Virus record (IMG/VR): IMGVR_UViG_3300034092_004681
Span: 1 to 40,191 of that record
Length of the DNA stretch: 40,191 nucleotides
Direction: 5' to 3' (one strand)
Origin: a virus
Shown here: positions 11,389 through 18,692 of the stretch, in pieces
How the letters are laid out: each line of letters opens with the position of its first letter
Numbering within the stretch: the stretch's first letter is position 1
Made by a program: the position numbers and the translations under genes
Notes under the pieces: generated by a model
Databases searched by the model: none
Told to the model about the DNA's origin: nothing
The model's input: only the letters and a program-made list of their open reading frames with translations

Positions 11389-13542
11389 CTATCGCTTTCG
11401 CTCTTTGGCCTCAACTGACCTCATCACCTTATTCGACCAGGCCTTTCCCGGATCACCGCCCCAAAGAGCCCAGGCAATTCTCCCGGCAGATGGGAATCCC
11501 TTTTGGCCAGGGGCCCAACCTTCGCCCTTCTTGTCTACTTCGTGACGCGCAAGGTATGCGCGCATCTTTTTCACTCTTGCAATTGTCATCTTGTTTCCCG
11601 TGAGCATTCTTGCGGTTACTTGACCAGGTCCAATTCCGCCCCTGCCAAACTCTTTTCGCCAATCAAGCCCACGTCTCGCTTCTGCCCTTACTCCTGCAGG
11701 AACATTAAGGTTGATTGTGTCGGCCTTTTCAACTTCAATATCTCCAAGGTTTGGAATTGCTGCGCCAGCAGCCTTGTAGGAGGAGTCGGCTGATGGGTCG
11801 TAATAGGAAACGATTGCTGCGCCAGCCCGAATAATCTCGCTGACCTTCTGTCTCTTGAAGTAATCAATTGCACTTGTCGGGAAGCTGCTTTCATAAACCT
11901 CGGCGTCAAATCCCGCTTCGGCAAGCTGACTTCTAACAAAATCAACTTGTCCCTTTGTCGAGGTGATTGCAACCACCGAAGAACCGCCCTCAACAAATCC
12001 ATCTATTGCGTCAATGATGTGTGAAGGGCACTCGTCACTGAGCAACGCCTCTGCGTCAACGAGAACAACGCTCTTCTTAGACGGTTGCTGATTTGGATTC
12101 ATTTCAGGATTCGGCTTAGACTCAAGTTGGTCTTTGCCCTGATCTGGCTCTTGGCTCCCTGCCCCGTTGTTTCCGGCCCCGCCATCCGGGACGTCTCCAC
12201 CAGGTGTTGGCTCCTGTTCTGGCGCGTCGGGATCGCCAACCTTACCCTTAAGGTAGAGCTCGTAATATCTCATTGGCATATACCCAAGCGGGCTTGGCAT
12301 CCATACTTCATCGCCCATCAGCCCAACGCCTTCCTGTCCGCGCTCCTTGAGCGCGTCATTGAGTCGAAGCCATGGAAGTCCGGCAAGTGCTGCCTTGTAG
12401 TAGTCAGCAACTGTCTGCGCAGACTCGCGACCAACATCAGTGTAGACAAATCGCAAGCCCTTGTCATAAAGCCAAACAACTTCTCTAGTGATGTAGTCCG
12501 CAATAAGTTCGCAAAGCGGAGCAATGCCGTTGTCGGCAGTGAACGCCGCGCCGTACTCTGACGAACTCTTGTTCACGTCAAAGTTTAGCCCGATGTCTTG
12601 CGCCTGAACGCCGAAGACTGCGCAGATCTTGCGTGCAAGATAGATCTGCCACTCCATGAACTGCATGTCTCGGTTTGACTGCGCCATAGGAATCCACTTG
12701 ACCCCCTTACCGCCACCGGTGATCGCGGTCTGGCTCTTGCCTGCGATTTCGCCTTCCCAATAGTTCTTGAAGGCATCAACCTGATCAGGGCGAACGCCTT
12801 CGCCAAGATCAATAATTCCCGGTGGGGTCGCCTGCTCAACAATGTTGTTGTTGTACTTAGCCGCCCGAAGGTCCGCCTCAATGGTCTCAGCAAGAACCTC
12901 TAGCGGTGAGAGGCCGAGCGGGGAATACGTCACTCGGTTTCCCACAATGACAATCATCTCTTCGTTCAGGTACTCGGCAATGATCTTTCCGGTCTCGTCG
13001 TATTCAAAGTATCGCGGCTTCTTTAGGTTTGTTCCGTCCCAGTCCGGGTCGAAAGCGATTCTTGCACCATCTTTTGGCCAAAGGTTCTTAACCGGCCTTC
13101 CGCTTCTTCCCGCCCGCGCCCCGACAGTATGTTCTTTCTCAATGCAGCCCTGATCCAGGACAAGAATATCCTCAACGATTGGCTCGATGAATGACCTCCA
13201 CGAATCAAGACGCGTATTTGGATCTCGCAAAAGATCCTTAATCGTCTTTACGTTTGCTTCGTTGACTTCACCGTTGCCATCAATGCTGACAATGTCCCAC
13301 TTTGCGCGGCTGATCTGCTGCCTGCGAAGATTAATTGCAGATCTAATCCATGGGTTTGTTCGGGACCACTTGCGAAGCTGATTAACTGAACGCTTCTGCA
13401 CAGTACCCTTGCCAGCGCCTCGCGCGTAAGGCTGCGAGTCGTAATTTGGAATAAGGATTGCATCCTTTATTGCTTGAACATCAGCTTCTGCTTGCGTGCT
13501 TTCAACTTGGCGCTTTACGCGCTCCCACGGCATCATTACCAC
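11389..13542 (-). CDS. Portal protein fused to a HAD-like domain and a C-terminal packaging-region domain, 717 aa
   Basis: Residues about 45-435 have the phage portal pattern (RTNPWIRSAINLRRQQIS; PLEVLAETIEADLRAAKYN; FMEWQIYLARKICAVFGVQAQDIGL; SSEYGAAFTADNGIAP). Portals form the dodecameric channel for DNA at the capsid vertex. After a Pro/Gly/Asn/Glu linker (440-490), residues 491-605 look like a HAD-fold domain: VVLVDAEAL at 492-500 where DxD would be expected (Asp-Ala-Glu here), VAITST at 524-529, a Lys in DYFKRQK, and VSYYDPSAD at 578-586. The last 90 residues (VPAGVRAEARRGLDW..GGDPGKAW) match a small domain common near phage head genes. GTG at 13542 is chosen for AGGAG eight bases upstream. 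Confidence 0.85.
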   Translation of the reverse strand: MVMMPWERVKRQVESTQAEADVQAIKDAILIPNYDSQPYARGAGKGTVQKRSVNQLRKWSRTNPWIRSAINLRRQQISRAKWDIVSIDGNGEVNEANVKTIKDLLRDPNTRLDSWRSFIEPIVEDILVLDQGCIEKEHTVGARAGRSGRPVKNLWPKDGARIAFDPDWDGTNLKKPRYFEYDETGKIIAEYLNEEMIVIVGNRVTYSPLGLSPLEVLAETIEADLRAAKYNNNIVEQATPPGIIDLGEGVRPDQVDAFKNYWEGEIAGKSQTAITGGGKGVKWIPMAQSNRDMQFMEWQIYLARKICAVFGVQAQDIGLNFDVNKSSSEYGAAFTADNGIAPLCELIADYITREVVWLYDKGLRFVYTDVGRESAQTVADYYKAALAGLPWLRLNDALKERGQEGVGLMGDEVWMPSPLGYMPMRYYELYLKGKVGDPDAPEQEPTPGGDVPDGGAGNNGAGSQEPDQGKDQLESKPNPEMNPNQQPSKKSVVLVDAEALLSDECPSHIIDAIDGFVEGGSSVVAITSTKGQVDFVRSQLAEAGFDAEVYESSFPTSAIDYFKRQKVSEIIRAGAAIVSYYDPSADSSYKAAGAAIPNLGDIEVEKADTINLNVPAGVRAEARRGLDWRKEFGRGGIGPGQVTARMLTGNKMTIARVKKMRAYLARHEVDKKGEGWAPGQKGFPSAGRIAWALWGGDPGKAWSNKVMRSVEAKERKR

Positions 13543-14477: not shown

Positions 14478-14488
14478 TTGGACTTTAA
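14387..14488 (+). CDS. Possible 33-residue leader peptide before the protease gene
   Basis: AGGGG lies eight bases before ATG. The frame reads MVLIRDYLLTPMSNRGSDRP and ends with a TAA that overlaps the start of the prohead protease gene by 11 bp. It may be a leader for coupled translation. Composition is unremarkable and no homology is seen, so it could be chance. Confidence 0.3.
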   Translation: MVLIRDYLLTPMSNRGSDRPVDGHKNWGSDLGL

Positions 14489-16079
14489 AATTTACACCAA
14501 CGCCCTGAAGGCCTATGAGTCTGAAAATGGCGAGCGATATGTAACCGGAACAACTTCTTCAACAATTCGGGACCTGCATGGCGATGAGATGTCGCTGGAT
14601 GCCCTGAAGACAATGGCTGAAACAGCCAGACAGAATATGACGGTGTTCCTCAATCATAATTACAATGTCCCAGAGGACCTTTTTGGCTCCGCCACGGATG
14701 CCCAGATTGTTAGACGATATGACAGCGAAACAAACGAAGAGGTTTATGACCTCGATCTCAATATTCGGGTGGTAAACGAAGACGAAAACCCAGAGGCGCT
14801 TCGCGCTTATCGCGCAATCAAGCGCGGGGTTAAGCTTGGTCTCTCCATTGGAGCCCGCGTTGAAAAGGCGCGTCGCAAGGCTGCCGAAGGAGACAGGCCC
14901 GAGTCAATCCTTATTGAGAAGGTTCGCCTACTTGAGGCGAGCGTTGTTGGCATTCCTGCCAACCAGAGATCCTACCTGCAGAACGCAGTAAAGAGCCTCC
15001 GCTCTGGTAGCGTCGATATTGACGAGCTTGAGGGCGTGATCGAAGAAGAGAAGTCAGAGACAGAAGTAACCTCTAAGGCAGAGGCTGGCTCCGTCATTGC
15101 TGGGGACTGGGTTCTCTGGTCAAATGAGGACGGCGAGACAATGTGCGGCGCTGTTGAGTACGTTATGACCGAAGGCACCCTTGGTGCTGAAGGTTCAGAG
15201 TATTCAATTGAAGCCACACCAGAAGATCCAGCAGCTCTTGTTCGCATTTATGAGGGCGAAGAGGGAAACTGGGAAGCAACCGAGATGCTCGTTGGCCAAA
15301 AGGTCAGCGCTCTCACCAAAATTAATCCGCTCCCTATGGCGGAAGAAGACGAGGAGACAGAAATGTCAGAGACCGAGAAGGATCTCTTCGCTGGGGAGGT
15401 CGTTGAGACCGCCGCCGGGGACGAGACCAATGATCTAGAGAAGAAGACCCGCGTGACCGTTACGGTCAGCACGGATTCTGAAGAGAAGCAGCCAGCTGCC
15501 GCATCTGTTGCTCCCTCCGCTCCGGATGCGGCAGCCGCGGACTCAGAGGAGAAGCTTGATGAAATCAAGGCTTCTGCCGAAGATGTGGCCGATGGCGAAG
15601 TTACTGAGAAGGTAGAGGACGAGAAGGAAGTCGTTGAGGAGGAGCCTGTCGACGCCAATGTCGAGGCCCTGCAAGAGCTCGGCGCTGAGCTCGTTACCGG
15701 CGACGCCGAAAAGTCCATTGCCGATGAATCATCCGTACAGCCCGAAGTGGCCGAGGCGGTTGTTATTAGTGTCGAGACCGAGGCCTCTTCCTTTGAGGAA
15801 GTGGAGTCGATCGCGAAGTCAGCTCTCGATGCAGCCAATGCTGCTCAGGAGGAGGTTACCGCCCTCGCGGCAAAAGTGACCGAGCTCCTTGAGTCGAAGG
15901 CCAAGGTCGAAGAAGATCTTGCGAAAGCGCTCGATCTTATTGATCGCATTAGCGATCTTGGGATCGGTCGAAAGTTCGTCGACAGGAATTCACAGAAGGT
16001 CAACGTCAAGGCCGCAGAGCGCGCGCCTTGGTTGAGCCCATATGTTCAGCGCGTCCTTGAGGCGCAAGACGAGGAGTAA
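14478..16079 (+). CDS. HK97-type prohead protease fused to SH3-like domain and scaffold, 533 aa
   Basis: Serine protease of the U35 / HK97 prohead class. Residues 20-170 hold GTTSSTIRDLHGDEM, catalytic His60 in FLNHNYN, catalytic Ser123 in GLSIGARV, and LLEASVVGIPAN. Residues 207-283 (GDWVLWSNEDGETMCGAVEY..ATPEDPAALVRIY..GQKVSALTKI) form an SH3/Tudor-like barrel often attached to phage proheads' proteases. A very acidic Ala/Glu/Val linker (290-430) and a coiled coil (about 435-500, AANAAQEEVTALAAKVTELL) look like a scaffold (delta-domain) role. It processes capsid and scaffold inside the prohead. The start is TTG with GGGGG seven bases upstream; no better ATG precedes the conserved part. Confidence 0.85.
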   Translation: MDFKIYTNALKAYESENGERYVTGTTSSTIRDLHGDEMSLDALKTMAETARQNMTVFLNHNYNVPEDLFGSATDAQIVRRYDSETNEEVYDLDLNIRVVNEDENPEALRAYRAIKRGVKLGLSIGARVEKARRKAAEGDRPESILIEKVRLLEASVVGIPANQRSYLQNAVKSLRSGSVDIDELEGVIEEEKSETEVTSKAEAGSVIAGDWVLWSNEDGETMCGAVEYVMTEGTLGAEGSEYSIEATPEDPAALVRIYEGEEGNWEATEMLVGQKVSALTKINPLPMAEEDEETEMSETEKDLFAGEVVETAAGDETNDLEKKTRVTVTVSTDSEEKQPAAASVAPSAPDAAAADSEEKLDEIKASAEDVADGEVTEKVEDEKEVVEEEPVDANVEALQELGAELVTGDAEKSIADESSVQPEVAEAVVISVETEASSFEEVESIAKSALDAANAAQEEVTALAAKVTELLESKAKVEEDLAKALDLIDRISDLGIGRKFVDRNSQKVNVKAAERAPWLSPYVQRVLEAQDEE

Positions 16080-16081
16080 AA

Positions 16082-17317
16082 ATGTCTGAAGTACGAGAGA
16101 AGTTGGATGACGTCGCGAAGGGCCTAGAGTCCCTCAACGGCGCTCCGATCGGCCGAGATCTCGATGTCGAGAAGAAGTCCGATTTTGATCCTGCTGAGGC
16201 CTATGCCGTTCAGCGCGAACTTCGCAAGAAGTTCTCGAAGATGAGCGCATCGGAACTCAACGAGATGCTTGATGTTCAGGCCTCGCGAGAAGTTGGGAAG
16301 CAGGCTGATGCCGGTGTCCTTAACCAGCTTGCGTTGTCGAACCCACAGATTGCAAAGGCACTTGACAGCAGCGGTGGTTCGGCGCTTATCCGCCAGGACC
16401 TCGAGCCAATCCTTTACAGCCTGTTCGTTAAGAAGTTCCCATTCTTTGACCGCATCCGCAAGGAGCCTGCAAACGGCCTCGTGCACGCGTTCAATCAGCA
16501 GACCGCTTACGGTGATGCAGTCTTCCAGACGGAGACCGGCACTGTAACCGACGATAACTCGACGTATGCTCGCCAGACGACCAATGTGGCCGTTCTTGCG
16601 ACCCGCCGTGGTATCACGCTTAAGAATCAGTTCGCGCTTGGTCAGGGCGGCTCGCCGTTCAATGGCCTTTCGCAGGAGCTTGGCAGCGGCGTAACCGCCA
16701 TTGCGCACAAGCTTCAGAAGACCCTGTTCCAGGGCAACGCAACCGTTACCGCGAGCGCGGGCGCAGCAACCGAGCTTGGTGCTTATGACGCCAACTCGTT
16801 CGATGGCCTCCGCAAGCTTCTTGGTACGGCTGCTTCAGCTGGCAACGAGATTGTTGGGAAGGGCACGGCTTCGTACCTTTCAACCATCAATACCGCTGTC
16901 GCTGGCGTCCTGGACAACGGTGGCGCTCCGTCGGCCGTCATCTGCACCCCAACCGACTACGCAGGCCTTGTGAATGAGCTTACAAACCTCGTTCGTTACA
17001 ATGCGCCTTCGCAGACGGAGCAGGCTGCTGGTGCAACCTTCGGTTCCGTCGTGACGGCTGCTGGCTCACTGCCAATCCTTGCCGTTCCTGGCGATGCCAT
17101 TGGTTCATACGCAATTTCCGGCACCGACTACCGCGATATGTACGTGGTGGACGAGGCTGGCTGGTCGATGCCATACCTTGGCTCCGACTCAATCACGACG
17201 CTCGAGATTCCGATCGGCGTGAACGGTGCCCTTACGCGCCTCTACATCATGTATGTGATGTTCGGGTTTGCAAACAAGGCTCCACAGTTCCAGGCGAAGG
17301 TTCGCGTTACGGTCTAA
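16082..17317 (+). CDS. Major capsid protein (HK97 fold), 411 aa
   Basis: It follows the protease by 2 bp and has the expected size and organisation. A charged helical N-terminal arm (1-75), probably cleaved by the protease, is followed by a hydrophobic body with GGSALIRQDLEPILYSLFVKK, TRRGITLKNQFALG, KLQKTLFQGN, an ICTPTDYAGLVNEL A-domain segment and a final MYVMFGFANKAPQFQAKVRV. High alanine/glycine/threonine content is typical. Capsid shells of this fold form T=7-type heads. I see no obvious Lys/Asn crosslink pair of the HK97 kind. Confidence 0.85.
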   Translation: MSEVREKLDDVAKGLESLNGAPIGRDLDVEKKSDFDPAEAYAVQRELRKKFSKMSASELNEMLDVQASREVGKQADAGVLNQLALSNPQIAKALDSSGGSALIRQDLEPILYSLFVKKFPFFDRIRKEPANGLVHAFNQQTAYGDAVFQTETGTVTDDNSTYARQTTNVAVLATRRGITLKNQFALGQGGSPFNGLSQELGSGVTAIAHKLQKTLFQGNATVTASAGAATELGAYDANSFDGLRKLLGTAASAGNEIVGKGTASYLSTINTAVAGVLDNGGAPSAVICTPTDYAGLVNELTNLVRYNAPSQTEQAAGATFGSVVTAAGSLPILAVPGDAIGSYAISGTDYRDMYVVDEAGWSMPYLGSDSITTLEIPIGVNGALTRLYIMYVMFGFANKAPQFQAKVRVTV

Positions 17318-17335
17318 TCCGTAAGTATTGCAACT

Positions 17336-17364
17336 GGGGCCCCAGGATTAATTCCTGGGGCCCC
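17336..17364 (+). terminator. Strong hairpin between capsid gene and next gene
   Basis: GGGGCCCCAGGA (17336-17347) pairs with TCCTGGGGCCCC (17353-17364) around TTAAT. No T-run follows, and the next gene's ribosome site is close behind. It is more likely a partial attenuator or an mRNA-stabilising hairpin that raises capsid expression relative to downstream genes than a full terminator. Confidence 0.55.
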
Positions 17365-17383
17365 GGAAGCGAAGGAGCAATAA

Positions 17384-17704
17384 ATGTTTGACGACGTTAA
17401 GAAGGAAACACCAACGGTTGATGTAAATGCAGTTGCCCAGAAGGCCGTAACCGCAGCTAAGGCTGCGGTTTCAGACGACGAGGTAGTTCGCGTACGAAAC
17501 CACAGCGGTCTTTCTTCGCTTGTTTTTGGAGACGGCACCGTTGCCCGTTTCCACGAGGGTGTTGCGCGCATTAAGGCTAAGTACCTAGTCCAGGCTGTTG
17601 CCCAGGGCTGCACGGTCGAGACTGATGCACCGGCAGCTCCGAAGCAGGAGCTTTCGGCCGCCCAAAAGGCCGAGCTTGAAAAGGTTTTCGGCAAGTCCGA
17701 GTAA
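17384..17704 (+). CDS. Small head-region protein, 106 aa
   Basis: GAAGGAG precedes ATG at good distance. The N-terminus is helical (VNAVAQKAVTAAKAAVS). The middle is a small beta domain (EVVRVRNHSGLSSLVFGDGTVARFHEG, then a KAKYLVQAVAQGC strand-helix), and the C-terminus is a charged helix (SAAQKAELEKVFGKSE). Small proteins between the capsid and the head-tail adaptor are often decoration proteins or connector accessories. I recall the RNHSG..FGDG.V.F..G pattern from phage proteins of unknown function in this position. Confidence 0.65.
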   Translation: MFDDVKKETPTVDVNAVAQKAVTAAKAAVSDDEVVRVRNHSGLSSLVFGDGTVARFHEGVARIKAKYLVQAVAQGCTVETDAPAAPKQELSAAQKAELEKVFGKSE

Positions 17705-17717
17705 TCAATCTAGCTTC

Positions 17718-17765
17718 AATGGGGCTCGCAGACACTTTTTTAGTGCAATGCGGGCCCCATTGTTT
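17718..17765 (+). terminator. Rho-independent terminator-like hairpin
   Basis: CAATGGGGCTCGCA (17718-17731) pairs with TGCGGGCCCCATTG (17748-17761) over 14 positions with one G-U, with a small CACT/AGTG hairpin in the loop. The run TTTT follows the stem. It would end most transcription after the capsid cassette. Readthrough or another promoter is needed for the adaptor genes. Confidence 0.65.
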
Positions 17766-17777
17766 TAGGATGTGAAA

Positions 17778-18692
17778 ATGATAAGAGTGAACGTATCTGT
17801 CCCGAATCCAGCTACCGCAGCCGCAACATATACAGGGATTCAAATCGGTAAGGCCGCGTCCCAGGCCGACGCAAGCACCCAGACCGGAGCGTTTTCCAAT
17901 CTTGGCACCGTAATAACGCTTGACGCCAAGATCGGTACGTACTCATATTCGGACAGCGATTCACCTTATGGCTACTGGTACGTATGGCGACTGACTGGGA
18001 GCTCGAACAACGGCGCCTGGTCAAGTCCGTATCAGGGCGTTGACACTGGCTATGTGACGGTTGCTGAGCTCCGAGAATACGAGCTTGGGGCACTCTCCCT
18101 GCCAGATGGAAGCGACTCGAGCGACAACAGGCTTGAAAAGCTGGTTGGCGTCGCCTCCAGGATGGTTGACGGATACTGCGGGTTCTCATTCAGATACAAG
18201 ACCACAGTTGAGCAGCACAAGTGGAACCAGGAGACAAGAAGGGTGTTTCCGTACTCCAGGCCAATCATTGCCGTCAATTCATTTGAGGTATTTGTTAGCA
18301 ATCAGCAAAAGGCCACTTTCAACCTTTCAGACCTGTTCATAAACACAAGTCAAAACTATGTTGAAGTGACAAGCCTGGCGAACGTAACCTACTCCCTATT
18401 CCCGGCAATTGTTGCTCTTGGGCTTATCGATCCGGTAGCCAAGATCAACTATACCCACGGATACACCGTGACGCCTCAGGAGATCAAAGACGCGACTGCG
18501 CTGATCGCCATAGACCTCGCCTCAAGGGACGCGCTCTATCAGACCGGAATGGGCCAATTGACAAGGCTTACGGTTGGCGACACAACAATGGAAAGGCTTC
18601 CGCAGGTTGCCCCAGGGAAGCAGTCTGCACTGGCAATACCACCAACGGCTGCAGCAATCCTTGATCAGTATATTGCGGTGTCTATTCGATGA
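17778..18692 (+). CDS. Head-tail adaptor with N-terminal extension, 304 aa
   Basis: The start ATG at 17778 is preferred, with AGGA seven bases upstream; a GTG six bases earlier is possible. The C-terminal 200 residues resemble gp6/gp15-type adaptors that ring the portal: VAELREYELGAL, RLEKLVGVASRMVDGYCGFSF, then strands and a long final helical part (QEIKDATALIAIDLASRDALYQ). The first about 95 residues (VNVSVPNPATAAATYTG..YGYWYVWRLTGSSNNGAWS) look like a beta-sandwich (Ig/FN3-like) added to the adaptor, unusual for this family and possibly exposed at the neck. It overlaps the next gene by 4 bp. Confidence 0.7.
   Translation: MIRVNVSVPNPATAAATYTGIQIGKAASQADASTQTGAFSNLGTVITLDAKIGTYSYSDSDSPYGYWYVWRLTGSSNNGAWSSPYQGVDTGYVTVAELREYELGALSLPDGSDSSDNRLEKLVGVASRMVDGYCGFSFRYKTTVEQHKWNQETRRVFPYSRPIIAVNSFEVFVSNQQKATFNLSDLFINTSQNYVEVTSLANVTYSLFPAIVALGLIDPVAKINYTHGYTVTPQEIKDATALIAIDLASRDALYQTGMGQLTRLTVGDTTMERLPQVAPGKQSALAIPPTAAAILDQYIAVSIR

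Follow-up and report, generated by a model that had tools for sequence, protein, structure and literature searches.

The 40,191-nucleotide viral stretch analyzed here (the window; IMG/VR record IMGVR_UViG_3300034092_004681, positions 1 to 40,191) encodes a portal protein, P0001, built from an HK97-type portal, a Pro/Gly-rich linker, a HAD domain of ~120 residues, and a basic module of ~110 residues, in that order (Table 1). The portal core matches the Pfam family PF04860 (Phage_portal) with an E-value of 3.8e-38 and a score of 131.9 bits against a curated cut-off of 39.1, covering profile positions 2–318 of 321, and is also matched by the PHROGs portal families phrog_2662 and phrog_12. It can be aligned with that of relatives up to approximately residue 430. 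Among solved structures, the HK97-type portal 8q7d (563 residues) is matched by the family profile, with positions 94–472 aligned to chain residues 140–535 (E 1.5e-19); the 8q7d chain stops about where the linker of the window portal lies, and neither the HAD domain nor the basic module is matched.

The head gene block is oddly split. Protease, capsid, and head-tail adaptor occupy positions 14478–18692 on the plus strand, and the portal lies on the minus strand together with the genes left of it. Several IMG/VR records from different samples (L002–L006), one of which may be the window's own, encode a portal with 100% protein identity to that of the window, so the virus is not a one-off assembly. 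When bacterial and archaeal genomes were scanned using an alignment of full-length portals, no provirus or host was confirmed, and no cultured phage with this portal was encountered.

Table 1 Position of the portal gene, its domains, its HAD motif residues, and neighboring head genes in the window.
Feature	Position	Strand	Basis
Portal ORF P0001, 717 aa, GTG start	11389..13542	-	ORF call; coordinates exactly as in the first-pass annotation
HK97-type portal core, Pfam-matched residues 65-399	12346..13350	-	PF04860, phrog_2662/phrog_12, 8q7d
Pro/Gly/acidic low-complexity linker, residues 431-484, net charge -7	12091..12252	-	composition
Degenerate PNKP-type HAD domain, residues 486-606	11725..12087	-	hhalign, AF2 model, foldseek, active relatives
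HAD motif I (D496-A-E498), with the nucleophile Asp retained and Glu in place of the second Asp	12049..12057	-	residue table
S528, motif II Arg column of active relatives	11959..11961	-	residue table
K563, motif III Lys; 8/8 of degenerate clade	11854..11856	-	residue table
D582, motif IV acid; 7/8 of degenerate clade	11797..11799	-	residue table
Basic C-terminal module, residues 608-717, net charge +14, phrog_2859-type	11392..11721	-	PHROGs profile, charge count
Possible head maturation protease (weak phrog_80 match), without HAD	14478..16079	+	profile match
Major head protein (phrog_752)	16082..17317	+	profile match

The HAD region of the window, used as a single query, gave nothing significant in Pfam or PHROGs and no tblastn match among annotated phages. 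With no Pfam match of its own, its identity is unprovable from the single sequence, and relatives are needed. A scan of viral contigs returned 142 stretches encoding this portal, of which 80 were kept, including full-length relatives at 54–100% identity. In more than half of the aligned relatives, the segment reads like DIDGTLT ... IVSARS ... QFKKYK ... AIENDAEV, which are the four HAD motifs, and intact motifs (DxDGT, S/T-x-R, Lys, and an acidic residue) lie in the same place in relatives whose portal cores are 65–70% identical. The HAD domain of an active relative matches phage polynucleotide kinases (phrog_415, E 2.5e-18), and several Pfam HAD families are matched weakly by the active relatives. 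A profile made solely from the window's clade aligns with the HADs of active portals at E 1e-11 and with non-portal phage HADs at an hhalign probability of 96% (E 4.5e-9). No kinase domain was matched on the window ORF in Pfam or PHROGs, and the P-loop kinase of a bifunctional polynucleotide kinase/phosphatase is therefore not found there.

An AlphaFold2 model of residues 478–717 (mean pLDDT 81) shows alternating strands and helices that form a Rossmann-type domain. Its best match among solved structures in foldseek is the LNS2 domain of Nir2 (probability 1.00, E 7e-3), with lipin phosphatases also matched; the E-values are modest, and the model includes the C-terminal module as well. Short-chain dehydrogenases ranked below Nir2, mostly with an rmsd of ~16, and were rejected. 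The HAD model of an active relative (L044, pLDDT 89.5) matches the 3'-phosphatase of T4 Pnkp (5uj0, E 1.3e-6, TM 0.68) and Pnkp1 (4xrp, TM 0.72), followed by Nir2 and lipin. When the family profile was compared with solved structures, weak matches to SecA appeared beside Pnkp1 and were taken as chance. The closest predicted viral protein to the window model is A0A6J5R7M5 from an uncultured Caudovirales phage (E 3.6e-18, 43% identity over the whole HAD-plus-module), already labelled 'HAD_like domain containing protein'. At 722 residues it is of the same length class and, to judge from its sequence, probably belongs to the window's portal family; the HAD label in UniProt is automatic, and the entry says nothing on portal identity or catalytic state.

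These comparisons show that the window domain has its origin in a PNKP-type HAD 3'-phosphatase. It has the fold and motif order of the T4 Pnkp phosphatase (5uj0, 1ltq, 2ia5) but sits on a portal with no kinase domain attached, and has lost the second Asp of motif I and the Arg of motif II. The first-pass annotation had proposed a portal with an added HAD-like segment, quoting the motifs VVLVDAEAL, VAITST, DYFKRQK, and VSYYDPSAD, all of which are present, and had pointed to structure prediction and a fold search as the check; the Rossmann-type model and its matches to HAD-fold proteins bear the proposal out.

The catalytic residues of the window domain are only partly conserved. In active portals, Asp occupies column 496 in 31/31 sequences and column 498 in 30/31; the window keeps the former and replaces the latter with Glu. 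The motif II Arg is found in 31/31 active portals and in 12 of 12 other HADs, and the window has Ser in this column, while the placement of its motif II Thr varies with the alignment. Thus, the window domain has neither the DxD of motif I nor the Ser/Thr-then-Arg of motif II that mark HAD enzymes, and retains the Lys of motif III and the acid of motif IV. In the alignment, the stretch following motif I is shorter than in active portals, and in sister sequences of the window the nucleophile itself is Glu or Asn. The degenerate clade also has invariant residues of its own, for example C505-P506, D514, K530, R572, G574, and Y581. Catalysis had earlier been called doubtful from the Glu in DxD, a doubt that the Ser at the motif II Arg column reinforces, and the HAD mechanism implies that catalysis was presumably lost along with the motif residues. 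Since D496, K563, and D582 are kept, residual activity is possible in the window, and the domain might still be a slow functional phosphatase in which E498 acts as a weaker acid/base. We consider this improbable in view of the Glu and Asn nucleophiles of the sisters, the Ser of motif II, and the shortened stretch after motif I.

Among 62 distinct portals whose C-terminus is complete, 61 have both the HAD domain and the basic module. The one apparent portal without HAD (L082) was rejected as an exception: its portal ORF is cut before a separate HAD-module ORF, which we read as a frameshift. A HAD domain had been regarded as something portals do not normally carry; its presence stands, but within this family it is the rule (61/61 intact members) and not one phage's oddity. 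The portal HAD is therefore more general than a single sequence could reveal, a family-wide feature with intact and degenerate versions side by side. The D-D-K triad is intact in only 39 of the 61 intact portals. By parsimony, the catalytic state changed 7 times on the portal-core tree and 6 times on the HAD tree, compared with ~18 times when labels were shuffled, and the catalytic residues were thus lost independently about 6–7 times. Point losses in otherwise intact HADs include EIDG (L166/L167), DIQG (L069), DIEG (L183), and a Lys-to-Arg change (L173/L174). Erosion is more extensive in L072/L078 and in the window's clade, of which one member (L020) has kept DxD and lost motif IV. Because catalysis was lost repeatedly and the domain never, the function that is retained needs no turnover.

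Selection on the domain was estimated with the codon model MGK in IQ-TREE, used in place of MG with fixed kappa. The degenerate HAD of the window's clade has an omega of 0.179, versus 0.087–0.109 for the HAD of three active clades, 0.033–0.049 for the portal core, and 0.044–0.071 for the C-terminal module, values that are rough because synonymous sites are near saturation in many pairs and the modules recombine. Pairwise estimates agree with the codon models, and the log-likelihood for the degenerate HAD drops by 103 units when omega is set to 1. Constraint on the degenerate domain is relaxed about twofold, yet it is far from neutral, and purifying selection continues. A decaying leftover, serving as a neutral spacer between the linker and the C-terminal module, would agree with the fall in HAD identity to 33–38% inside the window's clade, where the core stays at 87–89%. 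This reading is already largely refuted, and we hold it to be highly improbable, given the low omega and the cost of neutrality, the lack of any intact member without the domain (0/61), and the clade-specific invariant residues. Two relatives (L023/L026) have portal genes with a dS of 1.14 in the core versus 0.04 in the HAD region, indicating that the C-terminal part recombines between lineages.

The linker that separates the core from the HAD domain was described early on as low-complexity, which its composition confirms (10 Gly and 9 Pro in 54 residues, with acidic residues). Its identity across the family is only 15–74%, the near-identical copies of the window set aside. At the end of this variable segment, many relatives have a short NPxMxPNQQP-like motif, located in the window at residues 473–486 (about 12085–12126 on the minus strand), which may serve in processing or docking.

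The same type of HAD is found on other phage proteins. It is fused to prohead proteases with a Peptidase_S78 match (L100, L107, L116, L139, L158), to proteins of the same build (L117, L136, L148), to an XkdF-type protease (L109), and to a portal-MuF fusion (L127), and also forms stand-alone small genes (L102, L103, L113, L125). Both Asp residues, the Arg, and the Lys are intact in all 32 distinct non-portal copies, which were retrieved with patterns that favoured an intact motif IV. In one phage protein (L115, 1502–2824), the HAD adjoins an ADP-ribosyltransferase-like domain (ADPrib_exo_Tox, E 2.2e-5).

In known portals, the C-termini form a crown on the capsid side, and prohead proteases work inside the procapsid. 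Portal C-termini that face the capsid interior, together with the same HAD on prohead proteases and on a portal-MuF fusion, make the portal crown, within the capsid, the probable site of the C-terminal HAD. On account of this portal architecture, the terminase, one of the options raised in the first-pass annotation, is a less likely place of action than the capsid interior. We propose, with a probability of roughly 60%, that the window HAD is a pseudo-phosphatase on the portal C-terminus, kept for a non-catalytic role. Twelve copies would then sit at the portal crown inside the head, beside the packaged DNA. In intact relatives, the domain would still hydrolyze a 3'-phosphate or a nucleotide; in the window lineage, its role may be binding, whether of a phosphate-bearing ligand, of nucleic acid, or of some other component of the head, or it may be structural. 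The structural option agrees with the earlier suggestion of a retired phosphatase used as structure, as the fold is kept under selection and the catalytic residues are lost. More tentatively, and with odds well against it, the crown could hold a ring of twelve pseudo-phosphatases that bind nucleic-acid ends or phosphate, a non-catalytic device for DNA handling or sensing derived from an end-repair enzyme. Portals are usually seen as conserved minimal motors; here, an end-repair phosphatase is a standing portal domain that lost its catalytic residues about six times and yet stayed under selection. Natural pairs of intact and dead HADs in close relatives make the need for catalysis by enzyme domains of head proteins testable.

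Precedents for a non-catalytic role come from two systems. The LNS2 domain of Nir2/PITPNM, a lipin-like HAD (9jtz, 9jz1) and the top solved match to the window model at 18% sequence identity, has been solved in complex with phosphate and in complex with phosphatidic acid, a HAD fold serving binding; it is a eukaryotic lipid binder, to which the phage domain is likened by its predicted fold. Mu gp30 has an inactive PBECR domain whose orthologues are active, as noted by Iyer and colleagues (PMC5512222).

The main rival to a pseudo-phosphatase retained at the crown is host delivery. The HAD would be portal-fused cargo that is released, for example by linker cleavage, and acts in the host on nucleic-acid phosphates or signalling nucleotides, with catalysis lost where the host defence that it answered is gone. 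PNKP-type enzymes mend RNA ends cut by nucleases, an activity in keeping with such cargo. Sequence change is also faster in the HAD than in the core and recombination exchanges the module, as expected of an arms race, the NPxMxPNQQP-like motif recurs in the linker, and the domain is fused to head proteins (portals, prohead proteases, and portal-MuF), which is a mark of such effectors. PBECR, 2H, Nudix, and ART domains fused to MuF, portal, or capsid-processing peptidase are read as packaged effectors by Iyer, Aravind and colleagues in the parts of PMC5512222 (published in 2017) and PMC9503650 that deal with them. Portals, however, remain in the virion, and strong constraint persists after the losses, which inactive pure cargo would not need. 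Whole-record searches gave one HAD per record. On balance, we regard delivery to the host as unlikely, and prefer a pseudo-phosphatase kept on the portal.

Phage head proteins with enzyme domains are already known; for a HAD on portals or on prohead proteases, we found no description in the open-access literature. The fusions covered in those parts of PMC5512222 and PMC9503650 resemble the window in that a portal, protease, or MuF protein carries an extra domain of phosphoesterase type; HAD is not among the domains named there, and the window family adds repeated loss and measured selection.

The basic module that ends the portal corresponds to the further C-terminal domain, with the motif GGDPGKAW, recognized in the first reading. 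It is matched over residues 605–714 by phrog_2859, a PHROGs family of unknown function (E 6.7e-20), and its net charge ranges from +6 to +18. Phages of Roseobacter and Synechococcus also have the module on their major capsid proteins, and it occurs on proteases and other proteins. The archaeal Halorubrum virus HRTV-4 has it on a portal-MuF protein (E 2.7e-9, single target); no HAD was found on this portal, which had come up as a structural match. The module is likely to contact nucleic acid or head proteins. The occurrence of both HAD and basic module on prohead proteases points to a common stock of interchangeable head modules, scarcely named in profile libraries. The module, GRGG...ARHEVDK...PSAGRIAWALWGGD, is without a Pfam match and also occurs in L240 (1528–4014) and in H41–H67.
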